DNA of 53,509 nucleotides, from NCBI GenBank assembly GCA_031275395.1, contig JAISOU010000074.1, forward strand, positions 1-53,509, given 5' to 3'. Position 1 is the first letter of the stretch, and each line of letters opens with the position of its first letter. The DNA comes from Helicobacteraceae bacterium (GTDB taxonomy: Bacteria; Campylobacterota; Campylobacteria; Campylobacterales; SZUA-545). This document shows positions 1 to 53,383 of the stretch, in pieces. Under the pieces are notes generated by a model. That model made no database searches, had not been told where the DNA came from, and saw nothing but the letters and a program-made list of their open reading frames with translations. Position numbers and translations under genes: made by a program.

Positions 1-522
1 GATCTAAAAACTAATAAGTTTGTTTACGCTGGCGCAGTAGAAGAAATTTCTATCCAAGAGCTTGCGCAGACAAAGGAGCATTATATAGGGTTAGCTTACG
101 ATTCGGAAGAGGGCGGCGCGGAAAAAATGCATAACCAAATGCAAAATATATTTTTAGAGCAGATCGAGCGCTTCAACGGGATATTGATCGCCACGACCAA
201 CCTGCTTGACAATATCGACTCCGCCTTTTCGCGCAGATTTGATTATAAGATTAAATTTGAAAAACCTACAGAAAAAGAGCGGCTGGAAATCTGGCAAAAA
301 ACGCTACCCAAAAACGCGCCGATCGCAAAAGATTTAAACCTTGCCGCGATCGCCAAATATCCGCTGACGGGGGCGCAGATCGCGCTTGCGATCAAAAACG
401 CCGTTATGAACGTAGCCATCCAAAACGCGCCGCTTTTTACCAACGCGGTTTTTGAACGCGCGATCAAAAAAGAGTTAAGCGGCGCTTTCGGCGAAGAAAA
501 AACGCTCGGATTTTTATCTTAA
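1..522 (+). CDS. AAA+ ATPase, C-terminal part (5' truncated by window start)
   Basis: The frame is open from base 1, so the gene begins outside the window. The visible part carries the second half of an AAA+ module: a sensor-1 stretch IATTN (bases about 187-201) and an arginine-finger-like SRRF (about 229-240), then a small helical lid (KPTEKERLEIWQKTLP onward). This matches the single-module CDC48/spastin-like branch of AAA+ ATPases, which remodel protein complexes using ATP. No Walker A or clear Walker B is in the visible part; both should lie upstream. The stop codon is followed directly by the ATG of the DNA methyltransferase, so the two genes may be co-transcribed. Function and partner cannot be told from this fragment. 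Confidence 0.75.
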   Translation, partial: DLKTNKFVYAGAVEEISIQELAQTKEHYIGLAYDSEEGGAEKMHNQMQNIFLEQIERFNGILIATTNLLDNIDSAFSRRFDYKIKFEKPTEKERLEIWQKTLPKNAPIAKDLNLAAIAKYPLTGAQIALAIKNAVMNVAIQNAPLFTNAVFERAIKKELSGAFGEEKTLGFLS

Positions 523-1512
523 ATGCTTAGCAGCCTCGCTAATAATCGAACAAAATCGCAAAGCGGCGATTTATTTAGCTACGCCGCCAAAAACGAATCG
601 CCGGCGATTGCAAAGGCGCTGTTTTTGGATAATCTGAGAGGCTTTGGCGCTCGCTACAAACGCTACTGTAAATCGCCGTTGAGATATCCGGGCGGAAAAA
701 GTTTAGCGGTAGGGCTAATCGTAGAAAAACTGCCCGTCGACGTTAAACGAGTCGTTTCGCCGTTTTTTGGCGGCGGAAGCGTTGAAATCGCAATTGCCCA
801 AGAGTTACATATTCCCGTGATCGGCTACGACATTTTCGATATTTTGGTTAATTTCTGGAATCAAGCCATTAACGCTAACTTAGCGCTATGCGAAGCTCTT
901 TTGGCGCTTAAGCCAACGCGCGAAAACTACGACGCTATCAAAAAAGAGCTAACAAAGCATTGGAAAAAAGAAATAACGCTCGATCCGCTTACTTTGGCAA
1001 GAGACTATTATTTTAACTTCAATCTCTCATACGGACCCGGATTTTTAGGCTGGATAAGCAATATATATCTGGATACGGATCGTTATGCGGCTATGTTAAA
1101 TAAATTAAGTTCCTTCAATCCGCAAAATATAAGCGTAAGTTGCGCAAGTTTTGAAAATGCGTTACCAAACTACAGGAACGATTTTTTATACCTTGATCCG
1201 CCATATTACTTAGGCGGCGATTCGAAAATGTTTAAGGGCGTATATCCGCAACGAAATTTTCCCATTCATCATAACGGTTTTGATCACAAAGCGTTAAATG
1301 AAGCGTTGAAATTGCATAAAGGAGGCTTTATTCTCTCCTATAACGATTGCGCCGCCGTAAGAGAAATGTATAAAGCGTACGAAATTTTTGAACCGAGTTG
1401 GCAATACACTATGGGTCAAGGCGAAACTCGAATAGGTAAAAATCGCATAGAGCGCGGCGACGATAACGTTAAAGAAAGCCATGAGCTTTTAATTATTGGA
1501 GAAAGAAAATGA
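523..1512 (+). CDS. D12-class adenine-specific DNA methyltransferase
   Basis: N6-adenine DNA methyltransferase of the D12 (alpha) class. The motif order is visible: a RYPGGKS start of the fold (residues 54-60), SAM-binding FFGGGS (81-86), and the catalytic DPPY tetrad (225-228). Length 329 aa is slightly above the usual 260-300 aa because of a roughly 48-residue N-terminal extension before the conserved core, so an internal start is possible. The ATG follows the upstream stop without a gap, and the 3' end overlaps the next gene by ATGA. It most likely protects host DNA from the endonuclease encoded next. The recognition site cannot be read from sequence; GATC is one possibility given that Dam/DpnII-type enzymes are in this class, but the protein does not look close to DpnII. 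Confidence 0.9.
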   Translation: MLSSLANNRTKSQSGDLFSYAAKNESPAIAKALFLDNLRGFGARYKRYCKSPLRYPGGKSLAVGLIVEKLPVDVKRVVSPFFGGGSVEIAIAQELHIPVIGYDIFDILVNFWNQAINANLALCEALLALKPTRENYDAIKKELTKHWKKEITLDPLTLARDYYFNFNLSYGPGFLGWISNIYLDTDRYAAMLNKLSSFNPQNISVSCASFENALPNYRNDFLYLDPPYYLGGDSKMFKGVYPQRNFPIHHNGFDHKALNEALKLHKGGFILSYNDCAAVREMYKAYEIFEPSWQYTMGQGETRIGKNRIERGDDNVKESHELLIIGERK

Positions 1513-2297
1513 CGCCGAAAAAACGAGCGATGAGTAGCGATCAGGCAAGAGAGGTACGCGCAAAAGGACACGCTGACGCTCGACAATTTGCGCTCTTGAT
1601 CGGACTGCCAAACGATTATAAAAACGATCTGAAAGCAAAGAAGGACGTTATCGATCATAACGGCGACGCGCATAGTGTAAAAAGCGGCAAAGCGTGGTGG
1701 CAAATTTTTTTATATTCGCTTAATCGCATTAGAAGCGATTACGCTTTTACCGCCATGAACGGCGTCGGGCAACTTATTGGAGAGTGCTTGAATTGCTTTC
1801 CGCAAGATCGATCGGATTATCTAATGGATAAAGCGCGCTACAAGAAAGCGCTTGAAATCCCTATGAAACAAATATCCGATAAATTACAAGATAAAAAACG
1901 TTTAGCGGCTTTTCTCGCTAAATCGTTTTTTAACGGCAACGAAGTTCAGTTTCTAACAATCAAACATAATGACAAATATCATATTTTTTACTACAAAAAC
2001 GTTATTGATACGCTTTGCGAAAATTTCACGATAACAAATTCTGTCGCCCATCAAAAAGACCAATTTAATAATCAAAAAGTTTTATTTAAGATCGATGATA
2101 AAAACGCCGGAGAACTTGAAGTAAGAACCGATAGCGATGTTCACTATAGAGAAATTAAATTTCGTTTGAATAAACTCAAAGTGTTAACTTTGCTACAATT
2201 AAAGATCGCTTCCAAAGACGAGCCTATCAAAATCAATGGCGCGGACGTTAATAATAAACTTATTCGTTACGGCGCCGCAATTAAAAAGTTTAAGTGA
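1509..2297 (+). CDS. Probable type II restriction endonuclease partner of the methyltransferase
   Basis: I do not recognise the family with certainty. The assignment rests on position (ATGA overlap with the D12 methyltransferase, same strand) and on polar/aromatic segments seen in type II nucleases: KKDVIDHNGDAHSVKSGK (residues about 44-61) followed by WWQIFLYS, and an acidic stretch ending in EIKFRLNK that could supply an E-x-K. No HNH motif is evident. The second half is clearly richer in A and T than the neighbouring housekeeping genes, consistent with horizontal acquisition of the pair. The alternative is an unrelated accessory gene. Confidence 0.55.
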   Translation: MTPKKRAMSSDQAREVRAKGHADARQFALLIGLPNDYKNDLKAKKDVIDHNGDAHSVKSGKAWWQIFLYSLNRIRSDYAFTAMNGVGQLIGECLNCFPQDRSDYLMDKARYKKALEIPMKQISDKLQDKKRLAAFLAKSFFNGNEVQFLTIKHNDKYHIFYYKNVIDTLCENFTITNSVAHQKDQFNNQKVLFKIDDKNAGELEVRTDSDVHYREIKFRLNKLKVLTLLQLKIASKDEPIKINGADVNNKLIRYGAAIKKFK

Positions 2298-2652
2298 ATT
2301 AAGCGCTAAAAGCCAAGAGAAATAAAACAGTCGCGCTTTACAAAGCGGAAATTAGCCTTTTGGAGCGGCAACTGGTTTATCCGCTGTAGAACGGCGAATA
2401 AAAAGCGACTTTCGGATCGGGCGCATAAAACGCTACTTTTTTTTCCAACAAACCCGCTCCACGAACGCAACCGCGAGCAATCTCCAAAAGTATCATTCTT
2501 CGTGAACCCCTACAACAAAAAGAAGCTAATTCAAGATTAGAAATTATAGATTGTAATTCGTTGTTTTATTATTAGGTAAATCTGTCGTATTCAGTTATTT
2601 CCGCGACTTTAGCCTAGTTTAGGCGATGCAAACGATCGGCGATAAAACAAGG
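2298..2652. other. 355-bp intergenic stretch without a supported gene
   Basis: It lies between the 3' ends of the restriction gene (plus) and the SspB-like gene (minus). One open stretch at about 2429-2551 on the plus strand could be read for 40 residues but has no start codon context and no recognisable content, so it may be a degraded remnant of the accessory module. I see no tRNA, repeat array or clear terminator. Confidence 0.5.
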
Positions 2653-3129
2653 CTATTTCTTAAAAAACTTTTTGTTTTCAGGATTGTCTAAAAAACTCTG
2701 CATACTGCGATCGATAGAGCTATCTCCGCCAGAACCGACGCTTCGCGGTTTGCTTTTACGATTTTGCGGCAGAGCGGAGAGGTTTAAGAAAATAACCGTA
2801 TCTTCCAGTAAGATTTGAATAATCGCGCTGGTGGGAATATTGACCACAGAGGGGAAGTTTTCCGCGCCAAAACCAGCCTCAAAACTTAACCATAAAGCCT
2901 CTTCGTCAAGCTCGGCGCTGCTAAGCGTATAGTCGCTTAAAACAAATAGCGTTAAAGGCTTAAACGCCTGCGCTAAATTATCCGGAAGCGGAGGTTCGAA
3001 AATAATTTCGTTCAGATCGCATAAAATGCCGAACGATTCGCCGCTTTCGATCAGAAAATCTAATATATCCGCGCCATGATCGGCGATCATAGAGCTAAAC
3101 TCTTCGTCTTTAAATATCTTGCCAATCAT
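2653..3129 (-). CDS. Conserved small protein, possible SspB-like ClpX adaptor
   Basis: 158 aa, stop to start contact with pyrB (no gap), so it is probably translated with it. The middle (residues about 60-115) has a layout like SspB, the ClpXP specificity factor: a strand LFVLSDY, then EALWLSFEAGFGA, then VVNIPTSAIIQIL, which parallels IVLNI / VRFNARFGG / VPLAAVLAIY of E. coli SspB. A flexible polar linker with GSGG then leads to a conserved-looking C-terminal tail ending in ENKKFFKK. SspB also has an unstructured tail ending in a ClpX-binding motif. The similarity is by eye and distant; the safe label is conserved hypothetical protein. Confidence 0.4.
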   Translation of the reverse strand: MIGKIFKDEEFSSMIADHGADILDFLIESGESFGILCDLNEIIFEPPLPDNLAQAFKPLTLFVLSDYTLSSAELDEEALWLSFEAGFGAENFPSVVNIPTSAIIQILLEDTVIFLNLSALPQNRKSKPRSVGSGGDSSIDRSMQSFLDNPENKKFFKK

Positions 3130-4011
3130 CTAATACTCCAAAACAAACTTGCTTAATATAGCCATTCGCGTGGCGACGCCGTTATGCACCTGCCGCAAAA
3201 CAAGCGATCGCGGATCGCTTAAAACGCTATCGTCAAGATCGATATTTCTATGAACGGGGCCGGGGTGCATAACGTATATTTGCCGATCGCCTAGTAGCTC
3301 TTTTGTGATCTTAAAATTAACCGCGTAATCGCTAAGGCTAGCGTATATCGGTCGCTCGTGTCGCTCGGTTTGAGTTCTTAACGACATAATCGCGCTTAAT
3401 TCGTCTACAACTTCGCGTATATTCCACGTCGCTCGGACGTTAGAACGTTTGGGTAAAAAATGCGGAGGCGCGACTAATATAACCTCCATTCCAAAGCGCG
3501 TCAAAAGTTTTATGTTGCTGTTTGCCACGCGGGAGTTTCTAATATCGCCGACGATCGCTATCTTTTTGCCACGCACGTCCCCTAAAGCCTGCCGCAGAGT
3601 AAAAAGATCGAGAAGCGCCTGCGTAGGGTGCGCGTGCGCTCCGTCGCCTCCGTTGATCACGCTGGCTTTGACGTATTTTGAAAGGATTTTCGGCGCGCCC
3701 GCGTTTTTATGCCGCACCACGATCGCGCTTGCGCCCATCGCGTCGAGATTAGCCGCCGTGTCGTGCATAGTTTCGCCTTTGGATTCGCTACTGCTCGCCA
3801 CGTCTAAGCTGACGACCTCCGCGCCCAATCTGCGCGAAGCGACTTCAAAACTGCTTCGCGTGCGCGTAGAGTTTTCAAAAAAGATGTTGATGACCAGTCT
3901 GCTGCGCAATTTTTGATTGGTTTCGCCGTTAAGATACCCGTTCGCCTCTTCAAAGATCGCTTCAATCTCGCCGTCCGTTAAATCCGCAGTCGTCGTTAAA
4001 TGCCTTACCAT
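3130..4011 (-). CDS. pyrB: Aspartate carbamoyltransferase catalytic chain
   Basis: Catalyses carbamoyl phosphate + L-aspartate to N-carbamoyl-aspartate, the committed step of pyrimidine synthesis, in the cytoplasm. Family signatures are clear: the carbamoyl-phosphate loop STRTR at residues 48-52, HPTQ at 128-131, and the aspartate-side MHPGPVHR near the C-terminus. 293 aa is normal for the catalytic chain. No regulatory chain gene (pyrI) is adjacent. It starts 4 nt downstream of the PBP stop, so it belongs to the flgC-fliE-pbpB unit here. No strong ribosome binding site is seen before its ATG, which suggests coupling. Confidence 0.96.
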
Positions 4012-8094: not shown

Positions 8095-9342
8095 CTAAAA
8101 AGTCGCTTGCGAATAAACGGTAAAACGCTTTGAAAGCGCTTTGATCTCTTCGGAGATCGCGATTTGGCGTTTTTCGTTGGCTATATCGTCTAAAATATCC
8201 GATATTTTTTCGCCGATAAACTTAAACTCCTCCTCTTTCATTCCTCTGCTGGTAAGCGCGGCGGAACCAATACGAACGCCGCTTGTGATAAACGGGCTTC
8301 GCGTTTCGCCCGGCACGGTATTTTTATTGACGCAAATCCCCGCTCTGCCAAGCGCGTTATCCGCGTCTTTTCCGCTAAAGGCTCGATCTAAAAAACTCAT
8401 TAAGATCAGATGATTATCCGTACCGCCGCTAACCACGTTAAACCCGCGTTTTAACGCGACCTGCGCAAGCGCTTTGATATTCGCCTTGACCTGTTTTGCG
8501 TAGCTTTTCCACTCAGGTTTTAGGTTGTAGCCAAAACCGACCGCTTTCGCGGCGATAACGTGCATTAAGGGGCCTCCCTGCAAACCCGGGAAAACCGCTT
8601 TGTCGATCTTTTTGGCGATCTCTTCGTCGTTCGTCAAAACCGCGCCGCCGCGAGGTCCGCGCAAAGTTTTGTGAGTCGTCGTGGTAACGATATGCGAGTG
8701 AGGAAACGGGCTGGGATATTCGCCCGCGCAAACCAACCCCGCGACGTGCGCAATATCGGAAAATAAAAACGCCCCTACCCTATCGGCGATCGCTCTAAAA
8801 CGCGCGAAATCCAGCTCTCTCGAATAGGCGCTAAAACCCGCGACAATGATCTGCGGTTTAACGCTTAAGGCGATCTTTTCCACTTCGTCGTAATCGATCA
8901 ATCCGTTTTCATTAACGCCGTAAGAGAAGCTGTGGTAATTTTGCCCCGTAAAACTGACTTTAGCGCCGTGCGTCAAATGCCCGCCGTGGCTTAAATCCAT
9001 ACCTAAGATCTTGTCGTAGGGTTTAAGAAGCGCCGCATAAACCGCCGCGTTCGCGCTACTGCCAGAATGAGGTTGAACGTTGGCGAAACTAGCGCCGAAA
9101 AGTCGTTTAACGCGATCGATTGCGATCTGCTCGATCTCGTCGACAAACTCGCAACCGCCATAGTAGCGTTTGCGCGGATAACCTTCCGCGTATTTGTTGG
9201 TCAAAACCGATCCCATCGCTTCCATAACGGCGGGAAAGGTGTAGTTTTCGCTCGCGATCATCTCTAAATGATCGTTTTGCCGCCCTAGCTCCTTTTCTAT
9301 CCAGTCGAAAATCTCTTTATCTTCCGTTTGCAAATAACCCAT
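8095..9342 (-). CDS. glyA: Serine hydroxymethyltransferase
   Basis: PLP enzyme that interconverts serine and glycine while charging tetrahydrofolate with a one-carbon unit. 415 aa. The N-terminal [32 protein letters not shown], and the PLP-lysine segment [14 protein letters not shown] are unmistakable. One nucleotide separates it from the lysS stop, so both are in one operon with fur. Confidence 0.98.
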
Positions 9343-9343
9343 T

Positions 9344-10834
9344 TTATTCCTTTGTCCGTTCTGGTTTCATAGCGGGAAACAATAAAACCTCTCTAATCGC
9401 GTCAAAACCCAAAAGGATCATAACAAGTCTATCGATCCCGATCCCTTCGCCCGCCGTCGGCGGCATACCGTAACTAAGCGCGGTAACGTAATCCTCGTCC
9501 ATATACATACCCTCCTCGTCGCCCGCCTCTTTCGCGGCGACTTGCGCTTTGAAACGCTCGAACTGATCGATCGGATCGTTTAATTCGCTAAATCCGTTGG
9601 CGATCTCGTAACCGCCGATAAAAAGTTCGAAGCGATCGGCTATTTCAGGATTTTGATCGCTTCTGCGAGCAAGCGGCGAAACCTCGATCGGAAAATCGAC
9701 GATAAAGGTCGGGTCGATCAGTTTTCCTTCGACAAAAACGTCGAAAAGTTCGGCTTTGATCGCGCCGATCGACCGATCTTTTTTAATCTCGATCGCGTTT
9801 TGTTTTGAGATCGCTACTAACTTTTCTCGATCGTTTAGCGCCGCGCTATCTATGCCGCCGATTTTCGTTAGCGCTTCGTCGTAACTATATCTGGCAAAAG
9901 GCGTTTTTAGGCGGATTGTTTGCCCCTTGAAATTAACCTCGTTGATCTTTAGTGTAGCGGATAGTTCGGCAAAGAGTTTTTCGGTTAGTTTGATCAGATC
10001 TTCATAGGTTTTATACGCCCAATAAAACTCGATTGTAGTAAATTCTGGATTGTGCGTAGAATCCATACCTTCGTTGCGAAAATTGCGATTTAACTCGTAA
10101 ATCGCTTCAAAGCCGCCCGCGATCAATCTTTTTAAGTAAAGTTCGGGCGCGATTCGTAAATATCGATTAACGTTTAGCGCGTTGTGGCGCGTGATAAACG
10201 GTTTAGCGTTAGCGCCGCCCGGAATGGGGTGAAGCATAGGCGTTTCCACCTCTAAAAATCCGTTTTTTTCAAAAAATCCGCGAATCGTAGAGATAATCTT
10301 GCTACGCAAGATAAAGTTTTCTCTGGCGCTCGGATTCATAATTAGATCCAAATAGCGCTGGCGCGATCTAAGTTCTATATCCTGAACGCCGTGAAACTTT
10401 TCCGGTAGCGGACGGATCGATTTAGTTAAAATCTCGATCGATTTTATATGCAGGCTTAGCTCGCCCGTCTTCGTAACGAAACCGTATCCGCTTGCCTGAA
10501 CGATATCGCCTACGTCGATTAGTTTTTTAAGTTCGTTATAGCTTTCGCCAAGATCGTTTAACGATAAAAACAGTTGCGTAGAACCGCTTTGATCTTCGAT
10601 CGTAGCAAACGCCGCTTTGCCCATAACGCGCAAAAGTTTAACGCGCCCGACAAGATAAAAAACGGCGTTTTCGTCGCGATCGCCGCCATTTAATAAATTG
10701 GCGTGCCTATCTCTAAAATCCGCTATGCTTAGATCGCGCCTGACGCGGTTTTCATAAGGGTTTTTACCCTGCTCTTTTAGACGTTCAACTTTAGCGATTC
10801 TGGTTTGAACGTATTCGTTAAAGTCTGGGATCAA
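9344..10834 (-). CDS. lysS: Lysyl-tRNA synthetase (class II)
   Basis: Charges tRNA-Lys. An N-terminal OB-fold ([24 protein letters not shown]) is followed by the class II core with motif 2 ([20 protein letters not shown]) and motif 3 ([13 protein letters not shown]). An in-frame ATG at 10861 would overlap fur by 31 nt. I prefer the TTG at 10834, which overlaps the fur stop as TTGA, lies just after an AAGGCGAAGAG stretch, and leaves 27 residues before the NPY motif, as in C. jejuni LysS. From this TTG the protein is 496 aa (505 from the ATG). Confidence 0.95.
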
Positions 10835-43710: not shown

Positions 43711-44671
43711 ACTTTTCGCCTAGTTGGGCGGGGTCTAAAAGGGCGCGAATGCGCCCTACTTCTTTTATGTATGTCTCAAAACCCGCTTTTTCTTGGTATA
43801 GATTAAGCAAATCGGTAAGCCCCATTTCCAGTAGAGCGGTATTTTGCGTTTTAATCTCCGCGTTTGCAAAACCCGCGCCTAAAAACGCTTGCTTAATATG
43901 CCAAAACGGCGCGTCGGCGCTCAGATCGGCTTGCGCGAAATATGGCGAAAGCGTTTTTAACTCAAAAAGCGGCAAAACTTTGTGCTTCGCGTAAATCCTC
44001 GCCGAAAAATCGTTGCGCGGCGCGATTTCGCCATAGTCGAAGGTCATAAACGCAATCTTTTCAAAGCGTCGTTTCAGCGCCGAAGCGAACTCCTCGTAAC
44101 CGCAAAAAAGCTCTCCCCTAATTATGCCTAGCTCTCTTGCCTTTTCAATCGTCTGGCGATCGGCCTCTTTCCACTCGATAACGCCGTTTCCAACAAAAGC
44201 GATCTTCTCGCCGTCAATCAGATCGAAAGCAAACGCGTCAAATAGTTCGTTGGCGTAGATAAACGCCGTTTTCGCCTCGATATGTTTGATCGAAGGAACG
44301 ATTAGCGGATCGATCGCCTCGCCAAAACTCGCGCTTAAATACCTTTTTTGCTTTTCGCGTAGCGCCGCGATCGGCTCGATGATCGCAAACTTTAGAGTAT
44401 TTAGCAGGCGCGGCTCTAACGTATGGATAAATTGGATTACATCGGCGATCAGCCGCCCGTCGTGCGCTCCAAACTCGATCACGATCGCGTTTTCCGATAA
44501 ACGGGCGCTTTCTATCTGTCGTATTATAAAGTTGGCGATCGCGCCGCCAAAAAATGGCGTAACGCTAACGCTGGTGTAAAAATCCCCGCGTTTTCCTATC
44601 GCGGGCGCTTTCATATAGTAACCCTCCACGCCGTAGAGCCATTCGCGGACGTAATCGCAAAAGCGAACCAT
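43682..44671 (-). CDS. MidA/NDUFAF7-like SAM-dependent methyltransferase
   Basis: COG1565-type protein arginine methyltransferase-like, about 329 aa. In mitochondria the homologue NDUFAF7 methylates a complex I subunit; the bacterial substrate is unknown. The family segments GKRGDFYTSVSVTPFFGGAIANFI, IVIEFGAHDGRLIADVIQFI and FIYANELFDAFAFD are visible. The ATG at 44671 shares a base with the argD stop (TAATG), preferred to an ATG 15 nt upstream. Confidence 0.88.
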   Translation of the reverse strand: MVRFCDYVREWLYGVEGYYMKAPAIGKRGDFYTSVSVTPFFGGAIANFIIRQIESARLSENAIVIEFGAHDGRLIADVIQFIHTLEPRLLNTLKFAIIEPIAALREKQKRYLSASFGEAIDPLIVPSIKHIEAKTAFIYANELFDAFAFDLIDGEKIAFVGNGVIEWKEADRQTIEKARELGIIRGELFCGYEEFASALKRRFEKIAFMTFDYGEIAPRNDFSARIYAKHKVLPLFELKTLSPYFAQADLSADAPFWHIKQAFLGAGFANAEIKTQNTALLEMGLTDLLNLYQEKAGFETYIKEVGRIRALLDPAQLGEKFKRLLALLD

Positions 44672-45846
44672 TACAGATCGCGACAAGCCGCTTCAAGCCG
44701 CTTAAAGCCTTTGTTGATCTCCTCTTGAGCGATCGTTAGCGGCGGCAAAAGGCGAATATGATTCGCGCCGGCGCGCAAAACGAGAACGCGCTTTTCGTGC
44801 GCTTTGTCCAAAATAGCCTTTTGCGTCAGCGCGTCTTTGGCTACGATCGCCTTCATTAGCCCAAGCCCCGTTACGCCGATAAAAAGGTTTGGAAAGTTAA
44901 GCGCCAGCGATCGGCACATATCGCCAAAATAGTCGATCGAGCGTTGCAAAGCCCCGCTTTTTTGCATCTCCTCTAAAACCGCCAACGTCGTCAAAGCGGC
45001 GCTTGCGGAAAGAAAGTTGCCGCCAAACGTCGAGCCGTGATCGCCGTAGTCGAAAACCTCTTTTAGAGCCGTAACAACCGCGCCAATCGGAACGCCGCCG
45101 CCCAAACCTTTGGCAAAGGTCGTAATATCGGGATAAACGCCGTAGATTTGCGCCGCGCTAAACTCGCCGCACCGATAAACCCCGCATTGGATCTCGTCGG
45201 CGATCAACAGTAGTTTCTTTTTTGAGAGAAACGCGGCAAGTTCTTGCAGCTCTCGTTTATCTAGCGGCGCGATCCCGCCTTCGCCCTGAACTACCTCTAG
45301 CATAACGCCGATTGTTTGGCGATCAACGAGCGTTTCTATCTGCGCTAGATTGTCCGCGTAAACAAAGCCGTCGGGAAAAGGCCCGAAATGTTCGTGAAAT
45401 CTCTCTTGCGCGGTGGCTTTTAGCGTGGCGATCGTCCGCCCGTGAAAGGAGTTTTTCAGCGTAACGATCTTATGCCGTCCGCTTTTTTCGCCAAACTTAC
45501 GCGCTAGCTTGATCGCGCCTTCGTTTGCCTCCGCGCCGCTATTTGCGAAAAAAACGCGGCTATCTTGGGCGCATAACGCCGCGATCTTTTGCGCCAACTC
45601 GATTTGCGGACGGATCAGGTATAGATTCGAGCTGTGCAAAATCTTGGCTGCCTGTTTTGTAATCGTTTCGACCAAACGCGCGTTGTTGTGTCCGATCGAA
45701 TTAACGCCGATCCCGCTTGTAAAGTCGATATAATCGCGCCCGTCTTCGTCGAAAAGCGTCGCGTTTTGCCCGCGCTCAAAGGCGATCTCGCGCCTTGCGT
45801 AGGTATGCAAAACAAACCGATCGTCTAACTCTTTTAAGTCGTCCAT
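44671..45846 (-). CDS. argD: Acetylornithine aminotransferase
   Basis: Class III PLP aminotransferase, arginine synthesis (N-acetylglutamate semialdehyde to N-acetylornithine). 391 aa. RVFFANSGAEANEGAIKLARKFG, NSFHGRTIATLKATAQ, LLIADEIQCGVYRCGEFSA and the PLP lysine in TTFAKGLGGGVPIGA are clear. A related succinyl-diaminopimelate aminotransferase activity is common in the family. Coupled to the MidA-like gene. Confidence 0.95.
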   Translation of the reverse strand: MDDLKELDDRFVLHTYARREIAFERGQNATLFDEDGRDYIDFTSGIGVNSIGHNNARLVETITKQAAKILHSSNLYLIRPQIELAQKIAALCAQDSRVFFANSGAEANEGAIKLARKFGEKSGRHKIVTLKNSFHGRTIATLKATAQERFHEHFGPFPDGFVYADNLAQIETLVDRQTIGVMLEVVQGEGGIAPLDKRELQELAAFLSKKKLLLIADEIQCGVYRCGEFSAAQIYGVYPDITTFAKGLGGGVPIGAVVTALKEVFDYGDHGSTFGGNFLSASAALTTLAVLEEMQKSGALQRSIDYFGDMCRSLALNFPNLFIGVTGLGLMKAIVAKDALTQKAILDKAHEKRVLVLRAGANHIRLLPPLTIAQEEINKGFKRLEAACRDL

Positions 45847-45912
45847 AAATCACTCCTTAGCGCCGCTATTTTAATAAAAATCCCCTCGCTAAATCGATCG
45901 CGCCTAGAAAAG

Positions 45913-46197
45913 TTAAACGCCTATATTGACGAGCGAGAGCGATTTTTTGGGACAATGATAGATACATTTTATGCAACGCGAGCATAGGCTATCGTCGCAT
46001 TTCCACATTTTCGCGCTTACCGTTATCGCCTTATGTTCGCACCACTTTTGACAAGCGCCGCAATATACGCACTTATCGAGATCGTTTTTAACGCCTAAAC
46101 GCGCTTTCATTTTTCTCTTTAAGGACTTATGCCTTAAAGCCGATAGAACAAAAAGCGCGATAACGACAATGGACGCGATCGTAATTACAGTTAACAT
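45913..46197 (-). CDS. Membrane-anchored 2x[4Fe-4S] ferredoxin-like protein
   Basis: 94 aa. One N-terminal membrane helix (about 4-20) and a basic stretch, then two cluster motifs: C43, C46, C49, C53 and C72, C75, C78, C82-Pro; an extra Cys67 is also present. Electron carrier at the inner face of the membrane by the positive-inside rule; partner unknown. Its promoter has four 11-bp-spaced repeats shared in part with the response regulator promoter. Confidence 0.8.
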   Translation of the reverse strand: MLTVITIASIVVIALFVLSALRHKSLKRKMKARLGVKNDLDKCVYCGACQKWCEHKAITVSAKMWKCDDSLCSRCIKCIYHCPKKSLSLVNIGV

Positions 46198-46231
46198 TTT
46201 AACTCCTTGCGTTTGTTTTAATTACGCCGTT

Positions 46232-46286
46232 ATGATAGAGGGGTAAATTAAACGGAAGTTAAACGGCGTATAAACGCAATGTAAAC
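46232..46286 (-). promoter_or_regulatory. Pho-box-like direct repeats and -10 before the ferredoxin gene
   Basis: On the plus strand TAAAC-type repeats begin at 46248 (TTAAAC), 46259 (TTAAAC), 46270 (ATAAAC) and 46281 (GTAAAC), exactly 11 bp apart. On the transcribed strand the nearest repeat, GTTTAA, is 10 nt before TATCAT (46232-46237). This is the layout of OmpR/PhoB-class activator sites overlapping the -35 position. Confidence 0.7.
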
Positions 46287-47404
46287 TAGAAAAAGTTTTT
46301 AAGACGGAGGTTTTCGCAAGGAAACGCGAGAATAAACGACGCGCCTTTGTTTGGCGCGCTTTTGATCTGTATCCGAGCGCCGTGTATATTCGCGATCTTT
46401 TTTACGATCGACAGACCCAAACCGCTACCTTCCAAACCGCGATCGCGGGATTTATCCGCTTTGTAAAATCTTTCAAATATATGAACCTGATCCTCTTTAG
46501 AGATTCCTATACCATTATCGGTTATAGTAAAATAGATATTCTCGCCTTTTTCTTTTAACGAAATATAGATCTTGCCTTTAGGCGGCGTAAATTTGATCGC
46601 GTTACGCAAAAGATTGACCCACGCTTGCGCGAGTAGCTCCTTATCGCCTATAAACTCTATTTTTTCCATTGACAGCTCAAGCGTTAAATCCTTTCTTATC
46701 CACTGCGGCTCAAGCGCTAAAACGACGTTTTCTATCTGTTTATCCAGCTCGAACGGCGCGGAATTAAGCGGCGTGGTTTGCGCTTCTAACGCGGAGAGTT
46801 TCAAAAGATTATCGCTTAGTTTTGAAAGTCTTACGCTCTCCGTTTCGATCACGTCTAAATAACGTTTTTTCTCTTCGGCGCTTAACTTCTCGTTTCTAAG
46901 AAGCGCGGCAAAACCGCTAATAGAGGTAATAGGCGATTGTATTTCGTGCGAAACGTTCGATATAAAATCTTGACGCGCCTGTTCCATAGTCCCTAACTGA
47001 CTCGCCATTTTATTTACGCTATTAGCCAGATCCTTAAGTAATTGCGGGGGATTATGCAACCGATCGTTTTGGCTTTCAATAAAAACGTTGAAATCGCCTT
47101 GCGACACCTTATTTAACGCAGACATAATCTCGCTTAAGAAATCAAGATAAATATCTTTGGGATTTCTTCTGCCGTGCGTATATCGAAAAATTGTCGCGCC
47201 TATAATCATAATCGCGTAAAACAGAGTCAATCCGATCAGCGCGGGAATGATATACGAAACAAAATCAGAACCGATCGCCAAAAACTCTTTGGCGATATAA
47301 TAACCCGCAATAAAAGAGCATATAAAAACGCCGTTTGCGAAAAAGCGCCTAAAATATATTCGGCGTATATCATCTTTATGTAATCTTGTTTTACGATTGC
47401 TCAT
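46286..47404 (-). CDS. Sensor histidine kinase (HAMP, HisKA, HATPase)
   Basis: 372 aa. Two membrane helices (about 21-38 and 50-73) with only a dozen residues between them, so there is no real periplasmic sensor domain. Then a HAMP-like linker (SALNKVSQGDFNVFIE), phospho-acceptor H153 in FISNVSHEIQSP, N box AWVNLLRNAIKFTP and G boxes DNGIGISKED and GSGLGLSIVKKIA. The HEIQSPITS box resembles Firmicutes kinases more than typical Campylobacterota ones, suggesting possible transfer. ATGA overlap with the regulator. Confidence 0.93.
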   Translation of the reverse strand: MSNRKTRLHKDDIRRIYFRRFFANGVFICSFIAGYYIAKEFLAIGSDFVSYIIPALIGLTLFYAIMIIGATIFRYTHGRRNPKDIYLDFLSEIMSALNKVSQGDFNVFIESQNDRLHNPPQLLKDLANSVNKMASQLGTMEQARQDFISNVSHEIQSPITSISGFAALLRNEKLSAEEKKRYLDVIETESVRLSKLSDNLLKLSALEAQTTPLNSAPFELDKQIENVVLALEPQWIRKDLTLELSMEKIEFIGDKELLAQAWVNLLRNAIKFTPPKGKIYISLKEKGENIYFTITDNGIGISKEDQVHIFERFYKADKSRDRGLEGSGLGLSIVKKIANIHGARIQIKSAPNKGASFILAFPCENLRLKNFF

Positions 47405-48078
47405 TTTAGCGTTTCCAAACGATAGCCTAAACCTCTAATAGTCGTTATCCTAAACCCGTATTGATCGGCTGAAAACCGTTCTCTTAAACGATTGATATGA
47501 ACGTCTAGCGTTCGTTCGTTGCCCTCAAAATCATAACCCCAAATATCTTCTATCAGAGCGCTTCTGGTAAATGTTTTTCCCTCTCCCGCAGAGAGCTTAA
47601 AAAGAAGCTCGAACTCTTTTGGCGGAATATCGCTTTTTTTACCGTTCAAACTAATAGAGTAACTATTTTTATCTATCAATAAAGAGCCGATCGAAACGCT
47701 TTGCGAAGTTATGATTTTGTATCGTTTAAGAAGCGCCTTAACTCTAAGAATCAGCTCCTGCGGTTCAAAAGGTTTTGTAAGATAGTCGTCCGCTCCTCTT
47801 TCAAATCCTTTAATTTTTTGTGCGATCTCGGCTTTCGCGGTCAGCATTAAGATCGGCGTTTCCTCGCGGTATTCGCGTATGTATCGGCATAGCTCGAATC
47901 CGTCCATTTTAGGCATCATAATGTCGATAATATAGAGATCGATCTTTGCGTCGTTTATCTCTTCAAGTGCCCTTTCGCCGTCGATCGCCTCGCATATATA
48001 AAATCCCTCTCTTTTTAATAGCGCGCCGACAAGCTCGCGGATATGATCGTCGTCGTCTATGATTAAAATCTTGCTCAT
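47401..48078 (-). CDS. OmpR/PhoB-family response regulator
   Basis: 225 aa. Receiver domain with the acidic pocket IIDDDDH, phospho-acceptor Asp52 in IIDIMMPKMDG, LTAKAE and the KPFEP loop, then a winged helix (PPKEFELLFKLSAGEGKTFTRSALIEDIWGYDFEGNERTLDVHINRLRERF). It is translated with the kinase. Direct repeats at its own promoter suggest autoregulation. Confidence 0.95.
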   Translation of the reverse strand: MSKILIIDDDDHIRELVGALLKREGFYICEAIDGERALEEINDAKIDLYIIDIMMPKMDGFELCRYIREYREETPILMLTAKAEIAQKIKGFERGADDYLTKPFEPQELILRVKALLKRYKIITSQSVSIGSLLIDKNSYSISLNGKKSDIPPKEFELLFKLSAGEGKTFTRSALIEDIWGYDFEGNERTLDVHINRLRERFSADQYGFRITTIRGLGYRLETLK

Positions 48079-48104
48079 TAAGAAACTCCGTCCGTAAATC
48101 TTTC

Positions 48105-48137
48105 ATTTTACAACGCGAATATAAACGCAATGTAAAT
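48105..48137 (-). promoter_or_regulatory. Direct repeats and -10 before the response regulator gene
   Basis: The plus-strand repeats ATAAAC (48121) and GTAAAT (48132) are 11 bp apart; on the transcribed strand GTTTAT is followed after 10 nt by TAAAAT (48105-48110). The 16-mer ATAAACGCAATGTAAA at 48121-48136 is identical to 46270-46285 in the ferredoxin promoter. Confidence 0.7.
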
Positions 48138-48214
48138 TAAACCGACAAAATGCGGCTCTAATCGCGGATTAGACCCTTTTTCGTAATAGCTCCGCTTCGC
48201 GTCTTGCGCCGCGA

Positions 48215-49336
48215 TCATACTAACGGCGGTTTTATGGTAATAAAGGCGATCTCGTTTGGGGCAAACATTCGCAAAGGAGGCCCCCAATATCCCACGCCGC
48301 GGCTAACATATACTTTAGCGCGATCGTCGTGTTGGTAAAGCCCCGCGAGATACGGCTGCGCGAAACGCACTAAAAGGTTAAACGGAAATATCTGTCCGCC
48401 GTGCGTGTGTCCGTTTAACATCAGATCAAAACTTTGCGGTTCAAAATCGTTAATAGAGATCGGCTGGTGGGCGAGGACGACGACAAAATTATCGGCTTTT
48501 ACGTCCTTTAGCGTCTTTTTCGCGTCAGGAAGCAAAAAGCCTAGCCGTTTGCCGGAATAGTCCAATATGCCCGCTATATCAATCTCGCCAAAATCGCCGC
48601 TGATACGAACGGATTCGTTTCGCAAAACTTCAATCCCAAGCGAATCGAGATAATCCATAGCTTCGATCGCGTTTGAATAATTTTCGTGATTGCCGCTTGC
48701 AAAGTAGATTCCGTATTTGCTCTTTGTCTTTGCGATCTCCCGCAAAGCTAATTTGATCTTATTGAGCCGCGCATCGACCAGATCGCCCGTGATAACGATA
48801 ATATCGGGCTTTAGCGCCTCGACCTGTTCTTTGATTCTGGCGGCAAACGACTGGTTTAATAGCGCGCCGTTGCCAAGATGCAGATCGGTTAAATGCGCGA
48901 TCGTAAGCGGCGCTTTGACGCGGGTCGTTTCGATCGTAACCTCTTTGATATTGGGCGCGGTTGTGGCGGAAAAAAAGCCGTAGGCAAGATAAGCGAACGA
49001 TACGACAAGCGCGCCGATTCGCATTTTGTTGTCGAAACGATCGCTCTTATAAGCGCGACGCGCGACGCGAATCGCCCAATCGCTAAGAAGCGCCGCCATA
49101 AACAGCGTAAAAACCGCGCCGACCATCAGCGCGAAAAGGTCTTCAAAGTAACTAGGCAGCAACTCGGCGCGGCGCAGATGCATATAGCTAATCGCCATAG
49201 CGGCGCATAAGACGACTATGGCGTAAGCGGCGATCTTTACGATTTTTCGCGTCGCAATCGGGCGAATCATACAAAAGCATATTCCAAACGCCATAGCCGA
49301 ATAGACGACAGTCATAACGATCGAAAACTTGGACAT
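48215..49336 (-). CDS. Membrane-bound metallophosphoesterase (YaeI/LpxG-like)
   Basis: About 373 aa: four membrane helices in the first 130 residues, then a calcineurin-type phosphoesterase with the five metal motifs in order: AHLTDLHLG, ITGDLVDA, SGNHENYS, LAHQPI and LNGHTHGGQIFP. Such enzymes hydrolyse phosphodiesters, in some bacteria of lipid A precursors. Substrate unknown here. The ATG at 49336 with AAAGG upstream is preferred to a TTG one codon earlier. Confidence 0.88.
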   Translation of the reverse strand: MSKFSIVMTVVYSAMAFGICFCMIRPIATRKIVKIAAYAIVVLCAAMAISYMHLRRAELLPSYFEDLFALMVGAVFTLFMAALLSDWAIRVARRAYKSDRFDNKMRIGALVVSFAYLAYGFFSATTAPNIKEVTIETTRVKAPLTIAHLTDLHLGNGALLNQSFAARIKEQVEALKPDIIVITGDLVDARLNKIKLALREIAKTKSKYGIYFASGNHENYSNAIEAMDYLDSLGIEVLRNESVRISGDFGEIDIAGILDYSGKRLGFLLPDAKKTLKDVKADNFVVVLAHQPISINDFEPQSFDLMLNGHTHGGQIFPFNLLVRFAQPYLAGLYQHDDRAKVYVSRGVGYWGPPLRMFAPNEIAFITIKPPLV

Positions 49337-49407
49337 CAAAAAAACCTTTATTTAGAAAATCTTATTTTTGACGATACTTAACGTCAAATAACAAAAGGAT
49401 ACCGAAA

Positions 49408-49954: not shown

Positions 49955-50080
49955 TCTTAATCCTAACAAACGCCCGCTTAACTCGACCTAACGCCCACAA
50001 ACTATGCTAAGAGCTAGAAAAACTCCCTTTTGCGGTCATAATATGAGGAAATATATCGGCAAAATCTCTTGCGTAACGGC

Positions 50081-50174
50081 GGGAAGGCGAGGGAATCGAA
50101 CCCCCCATAGAGATCGCCACCGATTCTAACGACGGGTTTGAAGCCCGCGACGCCCACCAGAACGTATGCCCTCC
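50081..50174 (-). tRNA. selC: Selenocysteine tRNA (anticodon UCA)
   Basis: On the minus strand the acceptor arms GGAGGGC and GCCTTCC pair (7 bp with one G-U), the anticodon arm CGGGCTTCAAACCCG carries the UCA anticodon, a long variable arm (ATCG/CGAT core) follows and the T loop is GGTTCGATTCC. About 94 nt, as expected for tRNA-Sec. The end boundary is uncertain by one base, and CCA is not encoded (GCCG follows). It is divergent from selA. Confidence 0.93.
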
Positions 50175-50243
50175 GCTAAATCGCGCCTTAAATAAACGAA
50201 TAAGTATAACGGGTTTAGAATTAACAAAACAAAAGGAGAAAAT

Positions 50244-51563
50244 ATGCCTTCGCCGCGCGACATTCCAAAGGTCGATCGCCTCTTAGAGCGCGAAAAACTC
50301 GCCGTTATCCCCATAAAATTGCGGACGCGACTGATACGCGAAACGCTCGATCATCTACGCGCGCAAATAGCGACGCGAGAGGTTTCTTGCGACGTAGAGT
50401 CGATCGAACGCGCAATCTTGGAGCGGTTTGAATCGCTGATCGCGCCTTCGCTACGACCGCTAATCAACGCGACGGGAATCGTCGTGCATACCAACTTGGG
50501 ACGAAGCGCGATCGCGCCTGAACTCTTTAGCGAAATCGCGCCGATCGTTACGGGTTATTGCAACCTAGAATACGACGAGCAAACGGGCAAACGCGGTAGC
50601 CGTTACGATCGTTTAGAGCGGCTAATGCGCGAAGCGCTTGGCGCGGAAGCCGCGCTTGTCGTTAATAATAACGCGGCGGCGGTTTATCTAATTCTAAATA
50701 CTTTTGCGCTCAAAAAAGAGGCTATTATCAGTCGCGGCGAATTAGTGGAGATCGGCGGAAGTTTTCGTATTCCCGAAACTATGCGTTTAAGCGGCGCGAT
50801 ATTACGCGAAGTCGGAACGACCAACAAAACAAGATTAAGCGATTACGAAGAGGCGATCGGCGAAAATACAGGCGTTATTATGAAGGCGCACCGATCCAAT
50901 TTTTCTATTAGCGGTTTTACAAGCGAAGTCGCGTTTAGCGATCTAATTGCGCTTGCGAAAGAAAAAGGGTTGATCGATTATTTTGATTTGGGAAGCGGGC
51001 AATTTTCGTCGTTAAGCGCTAACGAACCGCTTTTAAGCGACATCTCCGCGCTTAATCCCTCTCTGGTCAGTTTTAGCGGCGATAAACTTTTTGGCGGGGC
51101 GCAGGCGGGAATTATTTTCGGTAAAAAGGTTTTGATCGATCGCTTAAAGAAAAATCAACTGCTTAGAGCGCTTCGCGTAGATAAGTTAGTGATAGCGGTT
51201 TTAGAGGCGACTTTACGCCGATATATTTTAGGGCGCGAAGAGGAGATTCCAACCGTTAAGATGATCAGAGCGACTAAAGAGGAGTTAGAGCTTAGAGCAA
51301 AAAGACTTCAGAAGGCGCTTTTACCGATTGAAACTTCGATCGAAACGACAAAAAACTACGTAGGAGGAGGAGCCGCGCCAAACGAGGAGCTAATCGGCGT
51401 AGCGCTCGTATTTGAAAAAAACGTCGAAGTTTTACAGGAGCGCTTACGATCAGAAGGAATTATATCGAGAGTGGAAAACGACAAACTCTACCTTGAAACG
51501 CGAACGATATTTGAAAACGATTTACAAAAGATCGCGCAGGGCGTAAAAAGGGCTTGCCAATGA
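50244..51563 (+). CDS. selA: L-seryl-tRNA(Sec) selenium transferase
   Basis: PLP enzyme that converts Ser-tRNA-Sec to Sec-tRNA-Sec using selenophosphate. 439 aa. RPLINATGIVVHTNLGRSAI, VVNNNAAAVYLIL and the PLP lysine K281 in SFSGDKLFGGAQAG identify it. A strong AAAGGAG site precedes the ATG. It overlaps selB as ATGA. Confidence 0.97.
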   Translation: MPSPRDIPKVDRLLEREKLAVIPIKLRTRLIRETLDHLRAQIATREVSCDVESIERAILERFESLIAPSLRPLINATGIVVHTNLGRSAIAPELFSEIAPIVTGYCNLEYDEQTGKRGSRYDRLERLMREALGAEAALVVNNNAAAVYLILNTFALKKEAIISRGELVEIGGSFRIPETMRLSGAILREVGTTNKTRLSDYEEAIGENTGVIMKAHRSNFSISGFTSEVAFSDLIALAKEKGLIDYFDLGSGQFSSLSANEPLLSDISALNPSLVSFSGDKLFGGAQAGIIFGKKVLIDRLKKNQLLRALRVDKLVIAVLEATLRRYILGREEEIPTVKMIRATKEELELRAKRLQKALLPIETSIETTKNYVGGGAAPNEELIGVALVFEKNVEVLQERLRSEGIISRVENDKLYLETRTIFENDLQKIAQGVKRACQ

Positions 51564-53383
51564 AACGTTTGATCGTAGGAGCGGCGGGACATATCGATCA
51601 CGGAAAAACGGCGTTAATAAAGGCGATCACAGGCTTTGACGGCGATCAGACAAAAGAGGAAAAAGAGCGCGGGATTACTTTGGATCTTAGTTTTAGCCAT
51701 TTAGAAACGTCGAACGCCTCTATATCGTTTGTCGATGCGCCCGGACACGAAAAACTCGTTAAAAATATGATCGCGGCGGCTTTTGAATTAGACGCGCTTT
51801 TGCTTGTCGTCGCCGCAGACGACGGGATTATGCCGCAGACGAACGAACATTTAATGATAGCCGATATGCTCGGCGTTAAAAGCGCGATTGTAGTTATTAC
51901 GAAAACCGATAAAATCGCCCCCGATCGTTTAACCGAAATTAAAGAACGGATAGAAGCTCTATTTAACGATTGCTTAACGACTAAAATCACGGCGATCGTC
52001 GCTTTTTCTATCTATAAAAACGAAACAATCGCCGACGTGAAAAACGCGCTTTTTTCGCTTGAGCCGATCGAACGAAAATGCGGCGGATTTTTTCGTTACT
52101 ACTGCGATCGCGTCTTTGTGTCAAAAGGATCGGGCGTTGTGGTAACGGGCGCGGTTTTAGACGGCGAGGTCAAAGAGGGCGATAAGGTTTTTGCGTACGA
52201 TCTTAAAAAAGAGCTGATCGTTCGCGGCATAGAAACGCGCAACAAAGCGACAAAAGTAGCGCTTGCGGGCGAACGCGCCGCACTAAATATCAAAGGCGCG
52301 GAAGCTAAAGAGTTATTTCGCGGCGTTTTGCTGGCAAAAAAAGGCTATTTGCGCGGATTTAACCGCGTTGGCATTTTTATACGCGCAATCGGCGGCGAAA
52401 AGTTAAGGCATAACGCAGAAATTATATTATTTCTAGGCGCAAATCGCTTTGAGGCGCGTTTAATGTTTCTCGACGAAAAACTAGGCTTTGCGGAGCTTGT
52501 TATAGAGGGCGAGGTTTTTGCGGTTTTCGGCGATCGTTTTATTATCAGAAACGGCTTTAAGACAATCGGGGGAGGAGAGGTACTGCTTCCTATCGGCGAT
52601 CCGCTTAGTAAAACGCAAAAACTGACGCTTCTATCGGCGCTTAAAGATCGCCGCTTCGATCTGGCGTTTGCGGAGTTAATCGCTTCGCACAACAGAGGTT
52701 TTGGACTAATTAGCTCGAATCAACGTTTTGCGCTATCGCACGAAGAGGCTTTGGCGATCGCTTTGAAACTTTCTAATACGTTCGTCGATCAAGAGGCGCT
52801 TGTGGCTTACGATCTTAACGCGCAAAAAACCTTGCAAAAAGCGGCGATGGATATTTTTGTTAAAAACCGCCGCGCTATGCTCTCTGCGCATACCCTTAGC
52901 GAACGTTTCAAATGGGCAAGCAAAGCGTTTGTAGAAATCTCGTTATCCGCTTTGTTAAAATCGGGAAAACTTAAACTGGAAAACTCGCTATATCGACATA
53001 TCGACTGCGATATTATAGACGAACAGGAGTATATACGAGAAACGCTTTTTTCGCTGATCGATAAAGCTAGTTTCGCGCCGCAAGCGCCCTATAATATATA
53101 CGATTCTATCGATCTTGATCGCATAGAAGGCGATAAGGCGTTAAAAACGCTGACAAAACAGGGAAGAGTAACAAGATTGGAGCATAATATTTTCATTTCT
53201 TCCGAATGGCTTGCAAAAATGACGGACGCGCTTAGAAACTTAATCAAAGAAAATGGTTACGCCGACGTTCAAAGCGTTAAATCGCGTTTTAACTTGAGCA
53301 GAAAATACGCGGTGGCTTATCTGGAACGTTTGGATAAGTTTGGAGATATTCGCCGCGAGGAAGATCGCCGCGTTTTGCGATAA
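51560..53383 (+). CDS. selB: Selenocysteine-specific elongation factor SelB
   Basis: GTPase that delivers Sec-tRNA-Sec to UGA codons with a SECIS element. G1 GAAGHIDHGKTALIKAI, G3 VDAPGHEKLVKNM and G4 TKTD are near the N-terminus, followed by EF-Tu-like domains 2-3 and C-terminal winged helices (LRNLIKENGYADVQSVKSRFNLSRKYAVAYLERLDKFG). I use the ATG at 51560 (607 aa), overlapping the selA stop; a TTG two codons earlier is in frame. selD and selenoprotein genes are not in the window. Confidence 0.97.
   Translation: MKRLIVGAAGHIDHGKTALIKAITGFDGDQTKEEKERGITLDLSFSHLETSNASISFVDAPGHEKLVKNMIAAAFELDALLLVVAADDGIMPQTNEHLMIADMLGVKSAIVVITKTDKIAPDRLTEIKERIEALFNDCLTTKITAIVAFSIYKNETIADVKNALFSLEPIERKCGGFFRYYCDRVFVSKGSGVVVTGAVLDGEVKEGDKVFAYDLKKELIVRGIETRNKATKVALAGERAALNIKGAEAKELFRGVLLAKKGYLRGFNRVGIFIRAIGGEKLRHNAEIILFLGANRFEARLMFLDEKLGFAELVIEGEVFAVFGDRFIIRNGFKTIGGGEVLLPIGDPLSKTQKLTLLSALKDRRFDLAFAELIASHNRGFGLISSNQRFALSHEEALAIALKLSNTFVDQEALVAYDLNAQKTLQKAAMDIFVKNRRAMLSAHTLSERFKWASKAFVEISLSALLKSGKLKLENSLYRHIDCDIIDEQEYIRETLFSLIDKASFAPQAPYNIYDSIDLDRIEGDKALKTLTKQGRVTRLEHNIFISSEWLAKMTDALRNLIKENGYADVQSVKSRFNLSRKYAVAYLERLDKFGDIRREEDRRVLR

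Follow-up and report, generated by a model that had tools for sequence, protein, structure and literature searches.

The direct repeats at this locus raise the question of which genes the neighbouring two-component system controls, and of its origin in a genome of the Helicobacteraceae. The system lies in the window, the whole stretch of 53,509 nucleotides analysed here, where a response regulator gene, a sensor histidine kinase gene and a ferredoxin gene stand together (Table 1). The comparisons suggest, with a probability that we put at roughly four in five, that it is a horizontally acquired, efflux-activating two-component system of the Bacillota type, with its own operon, the ferredoxin gene, an AcrAB-type pump and an HAE3/MMPL-type exporter as predicted targets. 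This reading is based on MAG data and on a motif that was partly refined on its own targets.

Table 1. Coordinates of the cassette, its genes, its promoter elements and the flanking genes in the window.
Feature	Position	Strand	Remarks
Acetylornithine-aminotransferase-like gene, one flank	44671..45846	-	Name from sequence reading
Inserted cassette: regulator, kinase, ferredoxin and their two promoters	45850..48214	-	
Two-[4Fe-4S] ferredoxin, 94 aa	45913..46197	-	Fer4; hydropathy
Ferredoxin promoter, -10 hexamer TATCAT	46232-46237	-	
Ferredoxin promoter, four GTTTA half-sites	46249-46286	-	46282-46286, 46271-46275, 46260-46264, 46249-46253; 11-bp steps
Sensor histidine kinase, 372 aa	46286..47404	-	HisKA + HATPase_c
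OmpR/PhoB-type response regulator, 225 aa	47401..48078	-	Pfam Response_reg + Trans_reg_C
Regulator promoter, -10 hexamer TAAAAT	48105-48110	-	
Regulator promoter, half-sites	48122-48137	-	ATTTA 48133-48137 and GTTTA 48122-48126, 11 bp apart
Calcineurin-like phosphoesterase gene, other flank	48215..49339	-	

The regulator scored far above the cut-offs of both Pfam models (Response_reg and Trans_reg_C). In the kinase, HisKA and HATPase_c were the only domains found, and the hydropathy profile showed two hydrophobic, transmembrane segments separated by about 11 residues. Almost no part of the kinase is thus extracytoplasmic, which supports the preliminary description on this point and agrees with the make-up of intramembrane-sensing kinases (two helices, a linker of no more than 25 residues and no other sensor domain). 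The ferredoxin has two cluster motifs and, by hydropathy, one N-terminal transmembrane segment; according to the positive-inside rule, its cluster domain would be cytoplasmic. The query of the genome contigs with this protein found no relative, and the search of 96 Clostridia-side genomes gave only matches of 30–47% to other ferredoxins, none of which lay beside such a system among those inspected. The phosphate system PhoB/PhoR was considered and rejected, as both proteins missed the curated cut-offs (PhoB, 198 bits of the 296 needed; PhoR, 210 of 334).

The four regularly spaced repeats described before the ferredoxin gene were read directly on the minus strand; the array starts on the final base of the kinase stop codon. 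At the regulator promoter, the pair and its spacing stood as described, but the assignment to the TAAAC type failed for the outer half-site, which is one base off. The distance from the proximal 6-mer half-site to the -10 hexamer was 10 nt at both promoters, as had been claimed. The shared 16-mer ATAAACGCAATGTAAA was likewise found at 46270 and 48121, with no other copy on that strand of the window; however, its place differs: at the ferredoxin gene it forms the outermost pair, at the regulator gene the promoter-proximal one. No consensus -35 element was found at either promoter. The arrangement GTTTA-N6-GTTTA occurs in the window as three overlapping pairs, all at these promoters, against 0.17 expected, and none of 300 dinucleotide shuffles contained a run of at least three half-sites. 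The repeats in the window are real and not a product of chance. Being head-to-tail repeats approximately 11 bp apart near the -35 position, they support the proposed geometry of an OmpR/PhoB-type activator site.

At the scale of the genome, all statements rest on pattern searches of the kind that the preliminary description had proposed. The repeat pair without the -10 element gave 14 matches in the 2.08-Mb genome versus 6 for the reversed control; thus, the pair alone is weak and not specific. When the -10 element was included in a pattern taken from the window only (GTTTA-N6-GTTTA-N11-TANNNT, at most one mismatch), ten matches were obtained, six of them inside open frames of 135–710 codons. 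The four non-coding matches were the promoters of the regulator, the ferredoxin, an RND adaptor (contig C70) and an HAE3/MMPL-type RND exporter (contig C12). The repeat pair with the -10 element is specific in this genome, and the notion of a self-contained regulon was wrong: two more conserved promoters, both of RND exporters, carry the site. A stricter version of the motif, refined after these two new sites had been seen, gave, at up to two mismatches, four matches here, three orthologous ones in G008, the sister species, and a single one in 13 further genomes of the family. Four further matches with three mismatches in G008 and one in G011 were set aside, as most of them lie in coding frames and look like chance. 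The repeat pair on contig C16 of the genome of the window (G000) was also rejected; it has the wrong spacing to its -10 element, and no match to it was listed in G008.

The promoter on contig C70 is that of an AcrA/AcrB-type RND efflux operon. Its site has a poor -10 element (AATAAT), and a second promoter with TATAAT lies nearer to the start codon; at the HAE3 promoter, TATTAT comes after the site, with a start codon some 30 nt further on. It could be argued that only the cassette is controlled and that these two sites arose by chance, given that the cassette sites were seen first and that the -10 element of the RND site is weak. We consider this unlikely, because the RND and HAE3 sites are the sole other non-coding matches with at most one mismatch in 2 Mb, both stand before exporters, and the donor group likewise has exporters as targets (see below). 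Moreover, both sites are kept in G008 (29/33 identical), while their 50-bp upstream flanks diverge (30/56 and 37/52). Relatives without the system have no operator site before their orthologs of the RND and HAE3 genes. Of those with an HAE3 ortholog but no site, G010 is the closest, and its genome is just 75% complete. The carriers of the system here are two species only, and these are sisters; therefore, the match between system and sites within the family amounts to one evolutionary event.

In several relatives, a TetR gene is located directly before the RND adaptor gene, and G000 and G008 are without it. These relatives have a TGTAAC-GTTACA-type operator together with the TetR gene; an operator-like sequence is kept in G000 and G008, with no adjacent TetR gene. 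Relatives of TetR were observed elsewhere, on contig C160 of G008 and on contig C26 of G000, the latter in two frames and perhaps broken. In addition, 53 bp downstream of the first cluster, the RND promoter of both species carries a second GTTTA-like one (TTTTA, GTTTA and ATTTA in 11-bp steps; upstream positions -111 to -95).

Comparison with the relatives shows that the cassette is an insertion. The cassette of 2.4 kb has a GC content of 41.6% versus 49.5–52.8% for the two flanking genes, and the flanking aminotransferase and phosphoesterase genes adjoin in G006, G007, G010 and other relatives. In G008, the DNA of which is about 91–94% identical, the regulator gene starts at the corresponding position, next to the same phosphoesterase gene; this start and the promoter before it are 91% identical, and the regulator site with its -10 element is identical at 31/33 positions. 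Three of the four genome sites recur in that species (regulator, RND and HAE3). The kinase and ferredoxin genes were not found in G008, where the contig breaks off after 35 codons of the regulator gene. These data bear on the possibility of contamination, with the cassette brought in from a gut Clostridium by an error of binning or assembly; its closest relatives do include Clostridiales MAGs. However, both flanks lie within one 53.5-kb contig and consist of genes that adjoin in relatives, the regulator start and promoter recur at the same place in G008, and the operator is also found on native genes in other contigs. Contamination is thus extremely improbable in our estimation.

Several other features of the surrounding DNA were observed. 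In G008, a TPR-repeat gene is located between the phosphoesterase and regulator genes (8100–9390 of the extracted G008 locus), and an apparent remnant of the 3' end of the TPR-repeat gene is present at 48160–48223 of the window. On contig C35 of G008 (positions 1–400 of the extract), a Fur-like gene precedes the aminotransferase gene instead of the ferredoxin gene; thus, either the G008 locus is rearranged there or the assembly is broken. A compact selenocysteine cluster occupies 50078–53383 of the window, with tRNA-Sec (50078–50175, minus strand) beside selA-like and selB-like genes, the names being taken from sequence reading.

The regulator was 67.7% identical to a protein of Faecalispora jeddahensis and 60–65% identical to those of other Clostridia, and, G008 aside, it shared no more than 40% identity with the full-length regulators of its own family. 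In a tree of 74 regulators, it was sister to the regulator of a Clostridiales MAG (96/87) inside a Clostridia-dominated clade (98/90), and the sequences of its own order were placed elsewhere. The closest relatives of the kinase belonged to Bacillota (42–50%), and the identity with kinases of its own order was 35% over the full length. The own-order kinases at this level, those of G080 and G243, were rejected as counterparts; they have no ferredoxin, and the regulators that go with them are placed outside the clade. Two Clostridia regulators that have the motif share the identical segment GYDFEGNERTLDVHINRLRERF with the window regulator. The comparison thus shows a cassette of Clostridia/Bacillota-type ancestry that was apparently acquired horizontally. 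Several close relatives seem to come from termite guts, as judged from MAG names only.

The operator was then sought in 80 loci of kinase relatives, mostly from Bacillota, with the pattern derived from the window and with its reversed version. Exact sites numbered 28 versus 0 for the reversed pattern, and sites with at most one mismatch numbered 45 versus 5; among other two-component systems of the host order, 58 loci were covered and gave no exact site. Most of the donor sites stand before the regulator gene or before an adjacent exporter gene or adjoining transcription unit, the exporters being DrrAB-type ABC, MsbA-type ABC, EmrB-type MFS and MATE proteins. The same repeats with the same spacing were present across phyla, in relatives from Firmicutes, Chloroflexota and Acidobacteriota, upstream of the regulator gene and of drug-efflux genes next to it. 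As in the window, a run of such repeats comes after the kinase gene in Faecalispora, C. beijerinckii and two Clostridia-type MAGs. Two genome-wide matches unlinked to the system were again at ABC exporters. By clade, recognition segment, operator and exporter targets, the last as judged from site position, the system belongs to a Bacillota efflux-linked two-component family. The autoregulation and the direct control of the ferredoxin gene, both put forward in the preliminary description, are strongly supported as predictions by this comparison. The insertion, the Clostridia clade and the operator shared with the donors together suggest that a Bacillota efflux-control system was transferred with its operator.

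Two observations concern individual donor loci. Two copies of the system, both with an operator upstream of the regulator gene, are present in the Clostridiales MAG G400; the size of this MAG, 8.8 Mb, suggests a mixed bin. Upstream of the Faecalispora system (1–3200 of the extract), there is a long repetitive stretch with frames repeating SSLMRGTWIE, which looks like a CRISPR array.

The donor loci also bear on whether the repeats could serve a regulator native to the genus and not the neighbouring one. The regulator family has some twelve more matches in this genome, and other OmpR-type regulators, such as PhoP, also read GTTTA repeats (PMC3335776). However, the relatives have native regulators in common with this genome (the closest, on contig C78, has orthologs in the genus), yet these relatives have no such sites at the promoters in question, and foreign relatives with the identical recognition segment have the same sites beside their own genes. 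Control by a native regulator is therefore very unlikely, and the neighbouring, acquired regulator is retained as the candidate reader of the repeats.

Among known systems, BaeSR of E. coli is a two-component system tied to RND export; BaeR is 35% identical to the window regulator and belongs to a different lineage. The most similar systems are found beside multidrug exporters in Faecalispora jeddahensis, Clostridium beijerinckii and Paenibacillus (two loci), and they appear to be unnamed. They resemble the window system in sequence (regulator, 57–68% identical; kinase, 42–50%), in the regulator-kinase order, and in having the repeats with their spacing before the regulator gene and/or the adjoining transcription unit, but their targets are ABC, MFS or MATE exporters, and the closest ones have no adjoining ferredoxin gene. 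The nearest described analogue, likened by description, is HitRS-HitPQ of Bacillus anthracis, the targets of which differ from those of the window system. HitS has two helices and a 15-residue loop and answers envelope-active compounds, and HitR acts through a direct repeat at the promoter of the ABC transporter HitPQ upstream of its own genes (PMC3968170, PMC7790381). As for the operator, the closest published one that we found is the enterobacterial PhoP box, (T/G)GTTTA-N5-(T/G)GTTTA, with an 11-bp period and active at 12 or 23 nt from the -10 element (PMC3335776); an exact match to the window pair is present in the phoP promoter of E. coli K-12. However, the PhoP protein is only 30% identical to the window regulator, compared with 60–68% for the Clostridia regulators, and its recognition segment differs, which rules out a PhoP ortholog. 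In the PHO box, too, two direct repeats of 11 nt are bound in a head-to-tail manner (review PMC4415409). The literature searches returned no account of this operator in connection with RND pumps.

We propose that a change in the membrane or close to it is sensed by the intramembrane-type kinase, with its two helices and very short loop, which then phosphorylates the regulator. Phosphorylated dimers would bind head to tail on GTTTAcATTsC-GTTTAw with 11-bp spacing, over the -35 position. At an operator placed 10 nt upstream of a -10 hexamer without a good -35 element, the regulator would recruit RNA polymerase as a class II activator and so raise its own operon, the neighbouring anchored ferredoxin, the AcrAB-type RND pump and the HAE3/MMPL-type RND exporter. 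The ferredoxin gene, with four half-sites, is probably the strongest target. The make-up of the kinase and the analogy with HitS suggest that the signal is likely a membrane-perturbing compound and that the output is export, and the ferredoxin may putatively take part in a reductive detoxification step. In Bacillota, the operator would control neighbouring ABC, MFS and MATE exporters, and after the transfer it would have come to stand at native RND promoters. A more tentative extension, to which we give somewhat less than even odds, is that the regulator crossed phyla with its operator and that two native Gram-negative RND promoters then gained it, one in place of the adjacent TetR repressor gene kept in relatives, the anchored ferredoxin being a new redox arm without a counterpart in the donors.

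If so, this would be a case of regulon capture that can be traced, as the systems of the donors, the transplanted switch, the insertion site in its empty state, and orthologous promoters that have or lack the operator can all be aligned. In addition, the pattern GTTTA-N6-GTTTA-N11-TANNNT predicts the efflux targets of a widespread and seemingly unnamed family of Bacillota two-component systems.
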